Source: Planctomycetota bacterium (lineage in GTDB: Bacteria; Planctomycetota; UBA1135; GCA-002686595). Taken from it: a DNA stretch of 64,000 nucleotides. Of this stretch, positions 1 through 8,844 are shown in pieces. How positions within the stretch are numbered: position 1 is the stretch's first letter; each line of letters opens with the position of its first letter. The position numbers and the translations under genes were made by a program. The stretch lies in NCBI GenBank assembly GCA_002686945.1, contig NYYZ01000011.1, forward strand, positions 31,233-95,232. Direction: 5' to 3'. The notes beneath the pieces are model-generated. The model did not search any database, was not told the DNA's origin, and saw nothing but the letters and a program-made list of their open reading frames with translations.

Positions 1-981
1 CGGCGGTTCGCGGCGGAGGAGGACTTTGATGACTGGTGTGACCGGCTGCATGTTTTTGGCCTCGACCTGCGCCACACGCCTAGTGTGGAGGCTTTTGCCA
101 AGCACATAAATGGTTCCTTTGCTCGCTTGGACTTTCTCTTGCACAACGCATGCCAGACCGTTCGGCGGCCGCCGGCCTACAGCGCCCATTTGATGGAGGG
201 CGAGTCCATTGAGGATCTGGATCCCTCGGTACGCCTGCTCTTGCGGAAGCATGAACGGCTGCTGGCAGACCTGGGGGCGCAGCCTGCACATTCCACGCCT
301 GATGCAGCTCAGATCGGGGGCGCAGATGCAGGTGCGGACCTGCCCGCACAGGTCGGAAATGACCAGGCCGCTTTGATGGGACTGACACACGCGGCGGGCA
401 TGAGTCAATTGGATCTGCTGAATGAGGACCAGCAGCGCGGTCTCTTCCCCGAGGGCATGTTGGACGGGGATGGCCAGCAGTTGGATCTGCGGTCCAAGAA
501 TTCCTGGCGTATGGAATTGAGCGAAGTGCCCACTGTGGAGCTGATCGAAGTGCATCTGGTCAACACCATTGCGCCCTTTGTGCTCAATGCCCGGCTCAAG
601 AACCTGATGGCTCGGGCGGGTACCGGGGATCAGCATGTGGTCAATGTCTCAGCTATGGAGGGTCAGTTCTATCGAACCTTCAAGACCACCCGGCATCCCC
701 ATACCAACATGGCAAAGGCCAGCCTCAATATGATGACCCGCACCTCGGCGGCGGATTTCTACCAGAGCGGCATCCACATGAACAGCGTCGACACGGGCTG
801 GGTCACAGACGAGGATCCCTTCGAAGCGGCGGTCAAGAAGGAACAGGATCAGCGCTTCGCTCCACCCCTGGACTGCATCGATGGGGCGGCGCGCATTGTC
901 GACCCGATCTTCGTGGGCTTCAACACGGGAGTGCATTGCTGGGGGCAGTTCCTGAAGGATTACGAGCCTGCACGCTGGTAA
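1..981 (+). CDS. SDR-family oxidoreductase, 5' truncated
   Basis: The reading frame is open from the first base of the window, so the N-terminus with the cofactor-binding glycine motif is missing. The visible part has the short-chain dehydrogenase layout: the helix-4 region LDFLLHNACQT (equivalent to the NNAG strand), a serine strand VVNVSAMEG, and the substrate-loop segment SVDTGWVTDEDP. The usual YxxxK catalytic pair is replaced by HTNMAK: the lysine is present, but threonine sits where tyrosine is expected. An insertion of roughly 100 residues lies between the NAC strand and the serine strand. It is probably an NAD(P)-dependent oxidoreductase of an atypical SDR subgroup; the substrate cannot be told. 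Confidence 0.8.
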   Translation, partial: RRFAAEEDFDDWCDRLHVFGLDLRHTPSVEAFAKHINGSFARLDFLLHNACQTVRRPPAYSAHLMEGESIEDLDPSVRLLLRKHERLLADLGAQPAHSTPDAAQIGGADAGADLPAQVGNDQAALMGLTHAAGMSQLDLLNEDQQRGLFPEGMLDGDGQQLDLRSKNSWRMELSEVPTVELIEVHLVNTIAPFVLNARLKNLMARAGTGDQHVVNVSAMEGQFYRTFKTTRHPHTNMAKASLNMMTRTSAADFYQSGIHMNSVDTGWVTDEDPFEAAVKKEQDQRFAPPLDCIDGAARIVDPIFVGFNTGVHCWGQFLKDYEPARW

Positions 982-1102
982 GGCTGGACCGGGGCGAGGC
1001 CGGGGGTCTATGCTGCGTCAGCACCCCGGAAACCAAGCTGCACCCAATGTTGATCGACCGTCCTGTTGAGACCCATGATTTCGGGTGGGTTCGTGTTCCT
1101 CG

Positions 1103-2242
1103 ATGAGTACAACGCCCGAGGAATCTCCGATCCCACGATGGAAGCAGCGCTTGCTGGCCCTGCTGGTGAGCTTCGTGCTGATGATTCTGGGGGGCGAGAT
1201 TTTCTGTCGTTGGCAGGTACATCAGGCCAATGCCCACAATCTTGAAGCGGTTCTCGCTGGCAGGACCAGACCGGTGGAGGGCACCTCGCAGGAACTCACT
1301 CCGGTCAGTTTCGGTGATGTGATCCGAATGGGGACCGATTCCAAGATCGTCTATGAATTGCACCCGAACCTGCAGGGCGTGAATTTCAAGGGACACGAGG
1401 TACGCACCAACCACCTGGGCTTTCGCTCAGCACCTCAGGTGCCCAAAGAAGCGAACACGATCACGATCATCGGTTTAGGGGATTCGATTCAATTCGGTCA
1501 TGGAGTCGGTCAGGATGACTGCTATCTGGAGCAGCTCAGGCTCCTGCTTCAGGCGGCCTATCCACGGCATGATTGGCGGGTGATCAACACCGCTGTGCCT
1601 GGGTACAACACGGTCATGGAGGTGGCGACCCTGGAAGCCAAGGGCATGGCTCTTGAGCCCGACCTGATTCTGCTTGGGGTGTGCGGCAACGACGAGGGGC
1701 TGCCCGTATATGTCAATCTGGCCCAAGACCCCTACGACCTGGGGCATTCGTTTCTCTGGCGAAAGCTGCGTGGGCACCAACCTGACTCGGAACCAGGTCT
1801 GGTGCACAAGAACACCCGGCGAGACGATGAGCAGGGGTCGACCTTCGATCTGCCGGGTCGTTACGAGCAACTCCAGGGTTGGAAGTCACTGGTCAGTGCC
1901 CTGGAGCGCTTGAAGGAGATCAGTGCTGACAATCAGATCCCGGTCTTTGCCATGGCCAGCATCACCTACAGCGATCATGGGCACGAGGCGAACCATGCCT
2001 CGCAGATCCTCGCCGCCTGCGAGGATCAGGGTTTCAGTGTGCTCGATATGCAGCCTTACCTGGACCAGGCGTTGTTCGCAGAAACAGGCAAGCCGTTTCG
2101 TGAGGGAGTCTACAAGCACTCGAGCCTGGTGGTCTCGCGCTTCAACCTGCACCCCTCCGCCAGTCAGCACAAGTTGATTGCCCAGAAGTGCTTTGAGCAT
2201 TTGGAAGAGAGTGGCACCTTGAATCGTTTGATGGGGCCATAG
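1103..2242 (+). CDS. Membrane-anchored SGNH/GDSL-family hydrolase
   Basis: A 379-residue protein from the ATG at 1103; an in-frame GTG at 1085 would add six residues. Residues 18-32 form one hydrophobic segment, so the enzyme domain is probably anchored outside the cytoplasmic membrane. Block I is IIGLGDSIQFG with nucleophile Ser128, and GND at 195-197 is the block III asparagine motif. The C-terminal block V histidine may be FNLHPS, but the residue three before it is Phe, not the usual Asp. SGNH enzymes act as esterases or as O-acetyl transfer or removal enzymes on polysaccharides. The neighbouring gene also encodes SGNH domains, suggesting a related substrate. The substrate is unknown. Confidence 0.75.
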   Translation: MSTTPEESPIPRWKQRLLALLVSFVLMILGGEIFCRWQVHQANAHNLEAVLAGRTRPVEGTSQELTPVSFGDVIRMGTDSKIVYELHPNLQGVNFKGHEVRTNHLGFRSAPQVPKEANTITIIGLGDSIQFGHGVGQDDCYLEQLRLLLQAAYPRHDWRVINTAVPGYNTVMEVATLEAKGMALEPDLILLGVCGNDEGLPVYVNLAQDPYDLGHSFLWRKLRGHQPDSEPGLVHKNTRRDDEQGSTFDLPGRYEQLQGWKSLVSALERLKEISADNQIPVFAMASITYSDHGHEANHASQILAACEDQGFSVLDMQPYLDQALFAETGKPFREGVYKHSSLVVSRFNLHPSASQHKLIAQKCFEHLEESGTLNRLMGP

Positions 2243-2261
2243 GGTGAATCGGTTTCTTTCC

Positions 2262-4418
2262 ATGGCCAACCGATTCCGGCTGGTTGCTTTCGTGGTCTTG
2301 CTCGCCGGTCCGGGGGTGACTCAGGTGCGAGTTGCTTGTGTGGGGGACTCCATCACACAAGGTGCCCTGTTGAGTGATCTGGAGCATGACGCTTATCCCG
2401 TGCAGTTGGGCTGGCGACTTGGTTCCGGGTATCGCGTACAGAATTTTGGTGCTGGTGGGCGCACCCTGTTGCGTGGGGCCGACCTGCCCTACATGGACAG
2501 CTCAGCCTGGAAGAAACTGCTTGAGTGGCAACCGGATCTGGTTGTGGTCATTCTGGGCAGCAACGACACCTGCGAAGGAAAGCGAGGAAACTGGGGCCAC
2601 CAGGCCGACTTGGAGGTTGACACCCAGGCCTTGATCGAAGGTCTGAGGGGGGCCAATCCGAAGGTGCGCGTGCTGCTTTGCAGTCCACCACCCATGCTGG
2701 TGGAGGTTGCAGGTCTGAGCGCGGAGCGTAGAAAGGATCTCAACGAGCGCGGCGGGCGGCTGGTGCGTATCGCTCAAGCGCTCATGTCCGTGGCTGCGCA
2801 ACATGCGTCCGCTCGCTTTGTCGATCTCTCCCGAGTCCTGAAGCCTCGGCAGGTGCTCGATGGAGTGCATCCCAATCCCTTCGGGGCGGAGGCGATTGCG
2901 AACCGGATCGCGGAAGTGATCTTGATGCCTGAGGCCCAGTCCCTGGACATCTTGGAGGCCTTGGGTGCGCGTGGCATCAAGCCGATCACGAGCCGTTACC
3001 ATGGATTTCCACGTCTTGATTTTGAGCTCGGGGCAGAAGGCCCCGCCTGCACCCTGGTGCAGCCCCACAGGGTCAGCCGTGGACGGCCGTGGCTCTGGCG
3101 GCTGCGCTTTTTTGGACACCAACCGGCCTTGGAGCTGGAACTGCTTGAGCGCGGTTTTCATCTGGCCTATGTGGACCTGACCCAGCTTTTCGGTTCAGCG
3201 CGCGCCTTGGCGCGCATGGAGGCCCTGCACGGAATGTTGCTGCAGCTTGGTTTCTCGTCCAGGCCGGTGCTTCTTGGAATGAGTCGAGGTGGATTGCCCT
3301 TGCTCGCCTGGGGCAACACTCATCCCGGTGAGACCGCTGCCCTGGTGGGGGACAACCTGGTTTGCGATCTGCGCACCTGGCCCGGCGGGCAGGGGGGCAA
3401 GCGATCGGATGGGGATTGGCATCGCGTGTTGGGTGAGTACAAGTGGACAGAAGCCGAAGCCGCCGCACGCGGGGACTTCTTGTTGGGCGGCATTGAAGCC
3501 CCGGCCAAGGCGGGGATTCCGCTCCTGCTGGTGCAGGGTCTCGCTGATCAGGTGGTGCCCCCGCTGGCCAACGGTTTGCGCCTTGCAAAACTCTGGCGCG
3601 AGGCCGGTGGGTCCGTGACCCTCTGGTCCAAGGCTGGTCAAGACCACCATCCCCATGGCTTGCATCCCCCTTCGCCTCTGACTCGTGAAATTCACTTTGC
3701 TTGTGGCCTGGGACGCAATCCCGCCACCTGGGCGGTTCCTTCGGCGGAGTACCGGGGTCATCCGGCCGGTTGGGGTGGCGAAACCTGGTGGCGGCAATTG
3801 GAGCGCTTGCGAAACCTCGGCCGGGAGTGGCCCCAGACCGAGATCGTCTTCCTCGGGGATTCCCTGACCCAAGGTCTGACCGGTGCTGTTGATCGAATTG
3901 CCCGAGCGGACGGCTCACGTCCCATTGATCGTATCTTGGGCGAGACCAATGCCCTTTCCCTGGGGCTTTCGGGTGACCGAACGGAACACCTCCTGTTCCG
4001 CATCAAGCAAGGTGCTTTGGCCGCTTGCGATCCCAAGGTCATTGTGCTCCAGATCGGGGTCAACAATCTCAACACTGCCCGGCACACGGGTCGTGAGGTG
4101 GCGCAGGGCATTCGGGCTGTGGTGGACCTGCTCGCCCAGGAAGAGCCCCAGGCCCATGTGCTGCTTTGCGGTCCTTTTCCTGTGGGGATTCAACCAACGG
4201 ACCCACGCAGGGCAGCTCTGGAGGAGGTGCACGCCTCGATTGCCGATCTGGGAAATCGTTCTGGAGTGACCTACTCCGACCTGCGGCCCTTGTTCCTTGA
4301 TGAACACGGCAAAGCCACCAACGCCATGCGCCAGGATGGTATTCACCTGAGTGGCAAGGGAGAAGAGGTTTGGCTTGGCGCCCTGCAGCCCTTGATCGAG
4401 TCCCTCATAGGGGGGTAA
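2262..4418 (+). CDS. Secreted SGNH - alpha/beta hydrolase - SGNH fusion protein
   Basis: A 718-residue protein with three hydrolase domains in one chain. The ATG at 2262 begins a signal peptide; a GTG at 2244 is an in-frame alternative. Domain 1 (about 22-225) is SGNH: CVGDSITQG with Ser30, ILGSNDT, and DGVHPNPFG near its end. Domain 2 (about 235-480) is alpha/beta-hydrolase-like: elbow GMSRGG with Ser341, LVQGLADQVVPP giving an Asp, and GQDHHPHG giving a His. Domain 3 (about 500-718) is a second SGNH of the PAF-acetylhydrolase-like type: FLGDSLTQG with Ser534, QIGVNNL, DGIHLSGKG. All three active sites look intact. It starts 19 bases after the preceding SGNH gene. Likely role: deacylation of extracellular polysaccharide (inference). 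Confidence 0.75.
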   Translation: MANRFRLVAFVVLLAGPGVTQVRVACVGDSITQGALLSDLEHDAYPVQLGWRLGSGYRVQNFGAGGRTLLRGADLPYMDSSAWKKLLEWQPDLVVVILGSNDTCEGKRGNWGHQADLEVDTQALIEGLRGANPKVRVLLCSPPPMLVEVAGLSAERRKDLNERGGRLVRIAQALMSVAAQHASARFVDLSRVLKPRQVLDGVHPNPFGAEAIANRIAEVILMPEAQSLDILEALGARGIKPITSRYHGFPRLDFELGAEGPACTLVQPHRVSRGRPWLWRLRFFGHQPALELELLERGFHLAYVDLTQLFGSARALARMEALHGMLLQLGFSSRPVLLGMSRGGLPLLAWGNTHPGETAALVGDNLVCDLRTWPGGQGGKRSDGDWHRVLGEYKWTEAEAAARGDFLLGGIEAPAKAGIPLLLVQGLADQVVPPLANGLRLAKLWREAGGSVTLWSKAGQDHHPHGLHPPSPLTREIHFACGLGRNPATWAVPSAEYRGHPAGWGGETWWRQLERLRNLGREWPQTEIVFLGDSLTQGLTGAVDRIARADGSRPIDRILGETNALSLGLSGDRTEHLLFRIKQGALAACDPKVIVLQIGVNNLNTARHTGREVAQGIRAVVDLLAQEEPQAHVLLCGPFPVGIQPTDPRRAALEEVHASIADLGNRSGVTYSDLRPLFLDEHGKATNAMRQDGIHLSGKGEEVWLGALQPLIESLIGG

Positions 4419-4458
4419 TCCCACCCGTTGGGTATGGTGGGCCCCAGCCCAATTGCGT

Positions 4459-6297
4459 ATGAGTTCTCCCAACTGGTCCCTTCGCGATGTACCCACTCGG
4501 CCTGGGGTCTATCTCTTCCGGGACGCAGGCGGGCAGGTGCTCTATGTGGGCAAGGCTCGCGACCTGCGTGCGCGTCTGGCAACCTACCAGCGGCCAGGCG
4601 CTGATGGCCGGCCGAACATCGCGTCCTTGGGGGTGGATGCAGCAGAGGTCGAGACGATTGTGACGCGCACCGAGGGCGAGGCCCTCTTGTTGGAAGACAC
4701 TCTCATCAAGCAGTATCAACCCGCTCACAATCTGCGCCTAAAAGACGACAAGTCCTTTCTGATGTTGCGGCTGGATCTTGCGGAACGCTTCCCGCGTCTC
4801 AAGTTTGTGCGCGCCCACAAGCCAGATGAGCAGAAAGGTGCGGGGCGTAGTCGCTTCTTCGGCCCCTTTGCTTCCTCTCGGGCTGTAAGGAGAACCCTGG
4901 CAGATCTGCATCGTTTGGTGCCTCTGCGGGATTGCCCTGATCATGAACTCAATGGCCGCTCACGGCCCTGCATCAAGTATCAATTGGAACTTTGCAGCGC
5001 ACCATGCGTGGACAAGATAAATGAGCAGGATTACGGGGAGTTGGTGAACAAGGCGCTGGGCATCTTGTCCGGAGACACTGGCGAGTTGGAGCAGGACTTG
5101 GAGCAGCGCATGCAGCGTGCTTCAAAACAGCGGGAATACGAGCGAGCAGCCCGCTGGCGCGACCGCTTGGCTGCTTTGCGACGCACCATCGAGGGTCAGG
5201 GGGTGCGGCCTCGAGATCGGGTTTCCAGGGACTTTGTCGGCTTTGCACGATCCGCTGGGCAGACAGCCGTGCATCGCTTGTCTTTCCGGGATGGTCGCCT
5301 TGCGGAGAGCCGCAGTCATTTGTTTCGCTCGGTCTTGCCGGATGCCGAGATGTTGCACCAGGTTCTGACCGCTCTGTATGGAAACAAGCGTCGTCAAGTG
5401 CCCAAGGAAATCGTGCTGGCCGTCAAGCCGGCGGAGGCGGGTCTCTTGAGCGACATTTTTGGCAGCCCCGTGCGCCTGTTGGTTCCGCGGGCCGGGGACA
5501 AACTGCGCACCCTGGACATGGCCGGAGAAAACGCCCGCAGCAGTCTGGAGCGTCACGATGCGACCGCCAGAAGGGAGCAGGAAGCGCTTGACGATTTGGT
5601 CCGTTTGCTCGACTTGGAGCAAGGCGCTGAAGTGATCGACTGCTTTGATATTTCCAATCTGCAAGGCTCCCATGTGGTGGCCAGCCGCGTGCGTTTTCGG
5701 CGCGGACACCCGGATCGGGCAGGCTACCGGCGTTTCAAGATCCGGGGTGTGGAGGGTCAGGATGACTTTGCTTCCATGCGCGAGGCGGTGCTGCGATCAT
5801 TGAAGCGCGGCATGCAAGCGGGCGACCTGCCAGATCTGGTAGTGATTGATGGGGGGCCTGGTCAGTTGGAGAAGGCTCTCGAAGCCAGGGCCGAGGTCGG
5901 TGCTTTTGATGTGGGGGTGATTTCGCTTGCCAAGGCGCGTGGCGAGAGGCGGGTCAAGGGGCGCACCAGAGAATCCAGCGAAGAGCGCCTGTTTATGCCC
6001 GGAGCAAACGCGCCCCTGGAACTCGCGAAAGGCTCTCCGGCTCGGCATTTGTTGGAGCGCGTGCGGGATGAGGCACACCGCTTCGCGATCACCTATCATC
6101 GCAAGGAGCGCGGTCGCATCAAGAGTGGCTTGGATTCGATTCCTGGGGTTGGAGAGGCTCGGCGCAAGCTGCTCTTGCGTACCTTTGGTTCTCTGCAGGG
6201 GGTGCGAGGAGCCAGCGTGGAACAGTTGGCTGCCCTTGATGGCATCTCTGCCCGGCTGGCCCGTGGAATTGTCGATCACCTGGCTGGGAGGGGTTGA
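4459..6297 (+). CDS. uvrC: UvrABC excinuclease subunit C
   Basis: The 612-residue length matches UvrC, which makes the dual incisions around UvrAB-marked DNA lesions in nucleotide excision repair. The N-terminal GIY-YIG nuclease begins PGVYLFRDAGG and LYVGKARDLRAR. A central UVR segment follows around residues 200-235. The C-terminal RNase-H-like nuclease shows DCFDISNLQG, GYRRFKI, VVIDGGPGQ and the histidine of AITYHRKER, followed by a helix-hairpin-helix pair (SIPGVGEARRK, LDGISARLA). The ATG at 4459 is preferred; a TTG at 4453 is in frame. It stands alone between an esterase and an unknown secreted protein. Confidence 0.96.
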   Translation: MSSPNWSLRDVPTRPGVYLFRDAGGQVLYVGKARDLRARLATYQRPGADGRPNIASLGVDAAEVETIVTRTEGEALLLEDTLIKQYQPAHNLRLKDDKSFLMLRLDLAERFPRLKFVRAHKPDEQKGAGRSRFFGPFASSRAVRRTLADLHRLVPLRDCPDHELNGRSRPCIKYQLELCSAPCVDKINEQDYGELVNKALGILSGDTGELEQDLEQRMQRASKQREYERAARWRDRLAALRRTIEGQGVRPRDRVSRDFVGFARSAGQTAVHRLSFRDGRLAESRSHLFRSVLPDAEMLHQVLTALYGNKRRQVPKEIVLAVKPAEAGLLSDIFGSPVRLLVPRAGDKLRTLDMAGENARSSLERHDATARREQEALDDLVRLLDLEQGAEVIDCFDISNLQGSHVVASRVRFRRGHPDRAGYRRFKIRGVEGQDDFASMREAVLRSLKRGMQAGDLPDLVVIDGGPGQLEKALEARAEVGAFDVGVISLAKARGERRVKGRTRESSEERLFMPGANAPLELAKGSPARHLLERVRDEAHRFAITYHRKERGRIKSGLDSIPGVGEARRKLLLRTFGSLQGVRGASVEQLAALDGISARLARGIVDHLAGRG

Positions 6298-6311
6298 GTT
6301 GAGACAGGTTT

Positions 6312-6345
6312 GATTCTTGCCTGGCGCGGCAGGCGCAGGAGAATC
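6312..6345 (+). terminator. Weak hairpin downstream of uvrC
   Basis: GATTCT at 6312-6317 can pair with AGAATC at 6340-6345 around an inner TGCCTG/CAGGCG pairing. No T-tract follows, so this is a weak terminator candidate or a leader structure for the next gene. Confidence 0.25.
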
Positions 6346-6432
6346 GTTACTCTGCTCATATCCTGGGCTCTCTTGACCGATCAATCTGTGGAACGCCCCA
6401 ACCCTTGACCTCCCCGAGCGTACCCCGCTGAC

Positions 6433-7797
6433 ATGCTGCACTTCCACCTCCTGCGTCTCTTTCTCCTGGCGCTCCTGCTCAACACCGCTGCGCCCTCTCC
6501 CGGGATTGTTCAGGATGAGGACCCCGTGCTTGGTTATCACCTTTACAAGGTTCCGGGCCTGACAGTCATTACTCAATGGCACTCTGAACGCAATCGTGAG
6601 ACCCTGGCACAACAGGCCGGCGCTTTGGCCAGCGCAGCCTGGTTGAGAGCACAGGAGACCTTGGGCCTGACACCTACTGTTTGCAGTCCTTCCATCACCC
6701 TGGAATTGCACAATGGTCGCCGTGCGTTTGTACAGGCGGCGCGTGGCCTGACAGGCAAGGCTCCGGACAAGCAGGTCGCTTCCTTCAGTGATCTCTCCGC
6801 TGGTTTTGCATTGATCACAGTGGCTCCGGTTCTGCCTGACCGCGTGCACGAGATCTTTGGCCTGCCTCCGGCAAGTCTGCGGATGGCTTGCGAAGAGATG
6901 CTGCGCCTGGGCTTGCAGCAGCGTCTACCAGATCTGCAGGAGAAGGCGCCCTGGCTGAGCGAAGGTCTCGTCCGTTGGTGCGTCCAGGAGACCATGGTTG
7001 CTAACGGGGTTGCGAAGTTGGGCACCCAGGAGCCAGGCCTTTGTCGGGAGCGTGCCGCCCTGCATGGGCTCTCGTCCGATCAACTGCCGAGCCTGCCCAT
7101 GGGGGGCGCGCCGGTCACAGCGCAAGAGGGCGTTCTGTGTCATCTGGCGCTTGAGTGGTTGGCTCAGCAGGAGCAGGGTGACCAACTCTTGAGCAAGTTG
7201 GGCCGCGGTGACCTCTTGAGCGAGACCGCCATCGTATCACTGTTGGAAATGCTAGGGGAGCAGCCCTCCGCGACCCTGGCCGAGTACCTCGGTCAACTGG
7301 AGTTCCCCTGGGACGAGCGTGCACCGGCCATGACCGGAAGTGCCTTTGGCCTCTTCCAGGTGCCCAGTCAGGGAAAAAGCGCGGTTTGCTTTCGCTCCCA
7401 ACCGGTGGGCTTCACGAATTATCGCATCGAAGGAGATGTGATGCTCTTTCCGGGAGCCCGCAGCAAGAGCCAGATGAACATCTTCTTGGGGCTTGACGGT
7501 GAGAGCTACCTTTCGGTGGCGATTACCCAGAGTGCTGGCGTTACAGTCTTTGTCTATGATCCTGAGAAAGACACCTTCAGCACGCTGGCTCGCAATCTGA
7601 AGGTTCCCGTGCGGCTCTACGATCCGACCAGTTTCGTGATTGAGGTCAAGAACGAGCGATTGTTTGTAGTAGTCAATGGCGTTTCGGTGGAGTCGGTTGA
7701 ATTGATGGGGCGGGCCATGGATGGGCCCATGGGGTTTGGCGCCCAGCGCCATGGTGCAGGGCTCTGGGTACGCCACCAGGTCAAGTCCCTCGACTGA
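6433..7797 (+). CDS. Secreted protein of unknown function, possible degenerate peptidase plus beta-sandwich
   Basis: Not recognised as a named family. The 454-residue protein starts with a signal peptide (hydrophobic residues 8-20, then AAPSPG). Residues about 30-290 are helix-rich. Their spacing resembles the peptidase-MA-like domains of secreted proteins, but the place where HExxH would fall reads MACEEML, with cysteine for the first histidine, so catalysis is doubtful. From about residue 310 the sequence is beta-rich with alternating hydrophobics (YRIEGDVMLFPG, LSVAITQSAG, LFVVVNGVSVES), resembling a concanavalin-like sandwich (inference). It lies 135 bases after uvrC and converges with the recombinase gene. 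Confidence 0.5.
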   Translation: MLHFHLLRLFLLALLLNTAAPSPGIVQDEDPVLGYHLYKVPGLTVITQWHSERNRETLAQQAGALASAAWLRAQETLGLTPTVCSPSITLELHNGRRAFVQAARGLTGKAPDKQVASFSDLSAGFALITVAPVLPDRVHEIFGLPPASLRMACEEMLRLGLQQRLPDLQEKAPWLSEGLVRWCVQETMVANGVAKLGTQEPGLCRERAALHGLSSDQLPSLPMGGAPVTAQEGVLCHLALEWLAQQEQGDQLLSKLGRGDLLSETAIVSLLEMLGEQPSATLAEYLGQLEFPWDERAPAMTGSAFGLFQVPSQGKSAVCFRSQPVGFTNYRIEGDVMLFPGARSKSQMNIFLGLDGESYLSVAITQSAGVTVFVYDPEKDTFSTLARNLKVPVRLYDPTSFVIEVKNERLFVVVNGVSVESVELMGRAMDGPMGFGAQRHGAGLWVRHQVKSLD

Positions 7798-7899: not shown

Positions 7900-8844
7900 T
7901 CAGGCTCGTGGGTGATACAGGCGATGTAAGGCGCGCACCCCATCCGCATCCACATGGGTATAGACCTCGGTGGTTCTGATCGAGGCGTGCCCCAGCAGTT
8001 CCTGTACTGCTCGCAGATCCGCGCCTCCGGCCAGCATGTGGGTGGCGAACGAGTGGCGTAGCGCATGGGGATAGACTGACGCGCTGATTCCCGCGCGCAG
8101 GGCTGCCTGGCGCACTCGGCGCCAGGCGGCGGCGCGGGTCAGGGGCCGACCGGTGCGTGAGAGAAAGACCTCCGGGACCCTGTCAGCTCGGGCCAACCGG
8201 GGGCGTCCTTGGCTGAGGTAGGTTCGCAGAGCTTGTTGGGCACGGCCACCCAGTGGCACCAGTCGTGTCTTGCCCCCCTTGCCCAGAAGGCGAACTACCT
8301 GGTACTCGCGCTCGATGCCCTCACTGGAAAGGCCCACCGCCTCGCTGATGCGCGCCCCTGTGGCGTAGAGCAATTCCAGCAGGGCGCGGTCTCTCTGCAG
8401 AAGGGGATCCTCTCCCTGGCAGGATGCAAGCAAGGCGTCCACTTCGTCGGGATCAAGGACTCCTGGCAGGTGGCGTCGTAGCGTGGGGCTGGGTATGCGT
8501 GCGCTGGGATCGCTCTTGATTTCTCCTTCTGCCACCAGAAACCGATAGAAGAGACGCAGCGAAACCAGGGCTCGAGCGATGGTGGCAGGGGCGGCCCCCA
8601 GGGCGCGCAGATGCCCCAGGTAGTCGATCAGATCCTCGGGGTTGGCTGCGCCGGGCTGCGCCAGATCGCGGTCCGCCCCCCAGCGCGCGAAGGCTTCCAG
8701 GTCCCGGCGATAGGCGCTGAGTGTGTTTCGTGCAAGACCTGCCTCCACCCGCAGGCTGTCGAGCAGATCTTCAATCGCCGCCTTTTGGAGAGGGGGCAGG
8801 GTGGGCTTGTCCCGGATCGGTTGAGCAGCAGAGGGGGTTGGCAA
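7900..8844 (-). CDS. XerC/XerD-type tyrosine recombinase
   Basis: A 314-residue site-specific recombinase; the normal size for Xer proteins is about 300. The SAM-like N-terminal DNA-binding domain covers residues 20-105. The catalytic domain has Arg165 in ATGARISE, the lysine hairpin GKGGK at 188-192, HALRHSF with His260 and Arg263, His286 in LLGHAS and the nucleophile Tyr295 in TTEVYTHV. All are intact. Chromosomal Xer proteins resolve chromosome dimers at dif with FtsK. XerC and XerD cannot be told apart here, though the C-terminal motif spacing looks XerD-like. It stands alone, convergent with the preceding gene and with no flanking repeats. Confidence 0.9.

Follow-up and report, generated by a model that had tools for sequence, protein, structure and literature searches.

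Esterases that carry two or more catalytic domains on one chain are already known. The CE6-CE1a-CE1b protein Fll4 of Flavimarina sp. Hel_I_48 is reported to be the earliest enzyme described with three distinct CE domains, and activity was detected for all but one of them (PMC12247016). BoCE6-CE1 and FjCE6-CE1 combine an SGNH-type CE6 domain with a CE1 alpha/beta hydrolase (ABH) as acetyl and feruloyl esterases, and the abstract claims synergy of the fused domains (PMC7110780). The window analyzed here, a 64,000-nucleotide stretch of a Planctomycetota contig, encodes in a single frame a triple esterase of the order SGNH–alpha/beta hydrolase–SGNH (domains D1, D2, and D3). By the three esterase domains predicted in this frame, the protein would belong with the multicatalytic esterases, which have at least two esterase domains per chain, as CE6-CE1 and Fll4 do. 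Fll4 likewise has three esterase domains per chain and mixes SGNH and alpha/beta-hydrolase-type folds, but its order is SGNH-ABH-ABH and it lies in a xylan locus, whereas the central domain of the triple esterase is unassigned (PMC12247016). BoCE6-CE1 and FjCE6-CE1 differ in having two catalytic domains, no third SGNH domain, and xylan loci (PMC7110780). The fused-esterase principle is thus shared with CE6-CE1 and Fll4, and it is the SGNH-ABH-SGNH order that differs here. On balance, the protein is probably an exported multicatalytic carbohydrate esterase, whose three serine-esterase domains would deacylate one acylated glycan.

The gene (2244..4418, + strand, stop codon 4416-4418) codes for 718 residues from the ATG at 2262 or 724 residues from the GTG at 2244. 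The GTG is probably the true start, since it lies directly past the upstream stop codon (2240-2242) and a same-genus relative (G001) has ATG at this place and Leu at the position of 2262. The residue numbers used here, including those of Ser30, Ser341, and Ser534, count from the ATG at 2262. The signal-like N-terminal stretch (residues 1-21, 2262..2324, +; MANRFRLVAFVVLLAGPGVTQ) abuts the first β-strand; in the full-length model, residues 2-14 formed a helix, the mean pLDDT over residues 11-20 was 56, and the strand began at residue 22. The protein is therefore probably exported by means of a putative signal peptide that would end at the first β-strand. The full-length AlphaFold2 model (58 rows) had a mean pLDDT of 93.2 and a pTM of 0.91, and Pfam placed two Lipase_GDSL_2 stretches (E 4.4e-48 for the whole protein) on either side of the center. 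The frame, Pfam, the model, and the Foldseek and VIA fold searches together confirmed the claim of an earlier, sequence-only reading that three hydrolase domains of two folds are fused in one protein.

Domain 1 (residues 22-222, 2325..2927, +) was recognized as an SGNH hydrolase by PF00657/PF13472, above the Pfam cut-off, and by VIA, in which it matched the M. smegmatis aryl esterase and Est24 (Z 20.5-21.1). In the Foldseek and VIA searches its nearest folds were aryl and carbohydrate acetylesterases, with Z about 20-21. Alignment placed the predicted nucleophile at Ser30 (2349..2351, +) and its partners at Asn101 (2562-2564), Asp200 (2859-2861), and His203 (2868-2870), all on the + strand, which together with G63/G66 and the D200-x-x-H203 spacing make up the residue set of the SGNH superfamily. 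Gly63 was present in 70 and Gly66 in 68 of the 81 rows with a letter. Domain 1 also resembled the C-terminal part of AxeA1 (NF042968; 123.8 bits, E 5.7e-36, model positions 268-458), but the N-terminal part of this 459-position model was unmatched, and the scores of 147.8 bits for the whole protein and 123.8 bits for domain 1 alone stayed under the 700-bit cut-off of the AxeA1 equivalog.

Ser30 was kept in 74 and lost in 6 of the 80 rows with a letter, a count that omits three rows without a letter at the nucleophile and includes degenerate domains that may be misaligned. In the six rows with the loss, Asn101 was absent from all and His203 from five, and the losses require at least five changes on the D2 tree. 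Asn101 was otherwise replaced by Ile in two further rows and by Ser in one. These losses indicate that catalysis by domain 1 is dispensable in some relatives. They also favor the alternative that catalysis is confined to one or two of the domains, with domain 1 or another mainly binding the substrate or acting as a scaffold; Fll4 offers a parallel in its domain that showed no activity (PMC12247016). Since all four catalytic residues of domain 1 were intact in the window and in its same-genus relatives, we consider this alternative rather unlikely for the protein studied here.

Domain 2 (residues 228-484, 2943..3713, +), when modeled alone (55 rows), gave a pLDDT of 97.0 and a pTM of 0.93. Foldseek assigned it to the alpha/beta hydrolases with a probability of 1.00 among the 50 matches listed, and VIA aligned it with S9 catalytic domains, carboxylesterases, and BTAxe1 at Z about 19-21. 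The alpha/beta-hydrolase fold, on which the sequence-only reading had depended for this domain, was thus present. The predicted nucleophile Ser341 (3282..3284, +) lies in G-M-S-R-G-G, which has the form of the nucleophile elbow G-x-S-x-G, and the alignment supplied the acid Asp429 (3546-3548, +) and the histidine His462 (3645-3647, +). In the alignment of the window with 82 relatives, all 83 rows had Ser341 and His462, and 82 of them had Asp429. The scores against PF00561, PF12146, and PF00326 were 14.2-14.8 bits, under cut-offs of 22.6-27, and membership of a Pfam or NCBIfam family was rejected because no score exceeded any curated cut-off in either scan; for the same reason, domain 2 may define a new esterase family. 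In the fold searches it came as close to the catalytic domains of peptidases as to esterases, and the first five VIA rows were all S9-type peptidase catalytic domains (Z 20.6-21.0).

Domain 3 (residues 490-718, 3729..4415, +) is an SGNH hydrolase of the PAF-AH Ib type. It matched 3dt6 in phmmer (E 1.6e-18) and 1fxw_F, a PAF acetylhydrolase Ib, both in the profile search (E 1.3e-38) and in VIA (Z 28.9, 1.9 Å over 210 residues, 31% identity); a Phocaeicola sialic acid esterase was matched as well, with Z about 22-23. The predicted nucleophile is Ser534 (3861..3863, +) and the aligned partners are Asn602 (4065-4067), Asp692 (4335-4337), and His695 (4344-4346), all on the + strand. The domain showed S534, G571, N602, and D692-x-x-H695, in agreement with PF13472 and with the close VIA match. 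This Ser/Asn/Asp/His set was complete in 62 of 63 rows, the remaining row being cut ahead of the Asp and His, and Gly571 was found in all 63 rows with a letter. In the aligned rows the nucleophile serine was never lost from domain 2 or domain 3, unlike that of domain 1. Ser30, Ser341, and Ser534 therefore stand as the nucleophile positions that had been read from the sequence, each within a catalytic set that is complete by alignment.

PAF acetylhydrolase Ib cleaves the sn-2 acetyl group of PAF, a phospholipid, and binds LIS1. Its catalytic subunits are like domain 3 in fold and catalytic set, whereas domain 3 is bacterial, probably exported, and part of a triple esterase; the comparison of the two covered fold and sequence. 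The phospholipid substrate of this nearest relative, together with the S9-type matches of domain 2, could point to domain 2 as an S9-like peptidase or a general carboxylesterase and to a protein without carbohydrate specificity, which would act for example on lipids or peptides. This explanation appears improbable, because the chain is without an S9 β-propeller, its other two domains are SGNH hydrolases, and relatives are fused to a GH29 fucosidase and F5/8C or have GH29 neighbors.

A scan of genomes from 84,980 species confirmed 431 places; the 80 best were fetched, and 1 locus from viral contigs was added. Among the 87 domain-bearing frames of these 81 loci, the triple D1-D2-D3 accounted for 58, the locus from the viral collection included; the others were D1-D2 (20), D2-D3 (3), D1-D2-D2-D3 (1), D3 alone (4), and D1 alone (1). 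Two of the D2-D3 frames were cut by contig ends and one had a degenerate D1, and the frame scored as D1-D2-D2-D3 (L076) is a triple with an extra C-terminus. Within the 81 loci, triples occurred in Planctomycetota, in many families of Bacteroidota, in an Armatimonadetes MAG (Armatimonadota), and in an Ignavibacteria MAG (Ignavibacteriota). Isolates with the triple include Planctomycetes bacterium Pla86 and Adhaeretor mobilis. Verrucomicrobiota and Kiritimatiellota contributed 13 loci, every one scored D1-D2, although in two of them (L117 and L124) Pfam showed a further SGNH stretch. Of 81 genomes from the window's own family, 13 had a full-length match, that of the window among them, with 14 proteins in total (best 13 or fewer candidates per genome). 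A sample of 198 Bacteroidota genomes (best 5 or fewer candidates each) had the triple in one, which was the seed itself, and D1-D2 in another. The triple-esterase family is thus broad but thin across the phyla.

The order of the domains had been put forward as undescribed, and no SGNH-ABH-SGNH esterase was named in the literature searched, which covered titles and the beginnings of abstracts, with subscription papers and preprints largely outside it. The claim to novelty was nevertheless weakened by the occurrence in several phyla: the triple is a recurring, multi-phylum enzyme family rather than a one-off, and a unique architecture was rejected on the 58 of 87 frames and the 13 of 81 own-family genomes. 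The architecture is common only in part, being spread over several phyla and present in those own-family genomes, yet found in just 1 of the 198 genomes of the Bacteroidota sample.

In the D2 tree, a quick tree with SH-aLRT support only, the window grouped with other Planctomycetota triples (SH-aLRT 100 for 3 rows and 99 for 7 rows). Triples and doubles were intermixed, and the triple label required nine changes, four of them forced by starred branches. Several loci showed variations of the arrangement. In L074 (1785-4070), one stop codon separated D1-D2 from D3 in the same frame, and in G625 (C37:33670-35849) a separate D3 match stood immediately upstream of a 1046-residue D1-D2 frame, so that the third domain can be a neighboring gene. 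G689 and G690, like L017 from G059, had adjoining D1 and D3 matches in a single frame that lacks the alpha/beta hydrolase. The locus from the viral collection (L139) is a triple esterase on a 69.9-kb contig; a phage origin was rejected, because the protein was placed with those of Phocaeicola and Alistipes on the tree, and the contig is probably bacterial host DNA.

Esterase domains were fused to a GH29 alpha-L-fucosidase in three arrangements: a 1519-residue planctomycete chain D1-D2-D3-GH29-F5/8C (L076:5710-10266), a D1-D2-GH29 fusion (L135 and L136 by Pfam, L133 by sequence match), and the D1-D3-GH29-F5/8C chain of L017. Separate GH29 genes flanked 9 of 38 triple or double loci, against 0.68 expected from genome-wide counts; these were 38 of the 44 loci on the Bacteroidota list (with L105, from Ignavibacteria, counted among the 44), they are partly related, and the detectors differed (phmmer in the flanks, Pfam genome-wide). 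Pfam upheld the flanking GH29 in the four loci checked (L084, L098, L103, and L126). Among 84 neighbors from the Bacteroidota list, GDSL esterases (6) and fucosidases (5) were followed by rhamnosidase, GDSL_3, DUF2961, GxDLY, SASA, and GH2 with 3 each (25 commonest of 117 families), and the 54 neighbors from the other loci showed no carbohydrate theme among the 25 commonest of 84 families (sulfatase 2, fucosidase 1). Both tallies were hand-picked (84 of 142 and 54 of 66 neighbors), with near-duplicate loci and some short or second-rank neighbors omitted.

Of the 13 own-family carrier genomes, 12, including that of the window (78.6% complete), showed no GH29 (PF01120), the exception being G693 with two matches; as the carriers are 77-93% complete, any single absence is weak. 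Outside the family, three full or partial carriers (G037, G059, and G076) were tested, and all three had PF01120. A fucosyl substrate for the window itself was not adopted because of the 12 carriers without PF01120. Fucose-containing glycans are thus the best substrate lead for the relatives, with no support in the window's lineage.

Acylation protects algal and plant glycans against glycosidases, and the acyl-serine route is established for SGNH and alpha/beta hydrolases. For the multicatalytic carbohydrate esterase that we favor, we infer export, activity of all three domains, a carbohydrate substrate, and an acetyl ester. Each predicted domain would act by the acyl-serine route usual for its fold, and the three tethered domains would remove O-acyl groups, most likely O-acetyl, at different positions or from different sugars of one glycan. 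Tethering might enable a single chain to remove esters at several positions, and deacylation would then open the glycan to glycosidases. Computation found three folds and three complete predicted catalytic sets on one chain, conserved across phyla. The conserved catalytic residues, the confident folds, the GH29 fusions, and the GH29 genes in the flanks support the carbohydrate-esterase reading; the 12 of 13 family carriers without GH29, the near neighbors, which do not evidently form a polysaccharide utilization locus, the D1 losses, and the peptidase-like folds of domain 2 count against it. The proposal of a processive deacylation machine survived to the extent that the protein is best read as a multicatalytic carbohydrate deacylase, but the results supported neither the word processive nor a different acyl group for each domain, and they gave no sign of channeling.

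A wider proposal, which we offer only tentatively, is that the triple esterases form a family that spans phyla and has yet to be described, in which domain 2 would found a new carbohydrate-esterase family, D2 and D3 would form a constant core, and D1 would have repeatedly turned non-catalytic. In several lineages such enzymes might be coupled to GH29, in one complex or chain, for deacylating and trimming fucosylated glycans. The natural versions that lose a domain, split one off, or add a fucosidase provide a ready-made system for testing the joint action of fused esterases and the specificity of each domain.

The separate SGNH gene reported directly upstream of the triple esterase proved to be real (1085..2242, +; 385 residues; PF13472, E 7.9e-10), and the N-terminal hydrophobic stretch of its product may be a membrane anchor. 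The spacing of the two genes is tight, and so they perhaps form one transcription unit. A fixed partnership was rejected, as a relative of the upstream gene (phmmer E <= 1e-5) appeared only in L059 and L060 among the 81 loci L059-L139. This gene, with its hydrophobic stretch, and one MBOAT match in the genome are what could be expected if, instead of removing acyl groups, the SGNH domains transferred them to an envelope polymer of the cell itself, in the manner of MBOAT-SGNH systems. However, the MBOAT match lies on another contig (C14, the triple esterase being on C11), and the alpha/beta-hydrolase partner and the glycosidase fusions fit removal better, which makes acyl transfer very improbable and leaves the carbohydrate esterase as the preferred reading.

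A polysaccharide utilization locus was not evident among the near neighbors scanned, GH29 having been sought genome-wide. These neighbors were SDR, SGNH, and uvrC genes, with a DEAD helicase in addition in the same-genus locus L059. A scan of positions 900-6500 gave 0 sigma-70-like promoter sites, a result that is uninformative for this lineage, and RNA families within the window numbered none at the gathering threshold. Further neighbors in the window included a dihydroorotate dehydrogenase, a response regulator, a 454-residue protein without a Pfam match at E 1e-5 (6433-7797), and a tyrosine recombinase (7900-8844, - strand; Phage_integrase, E 3.6e-44) that has the size of XerC/D.
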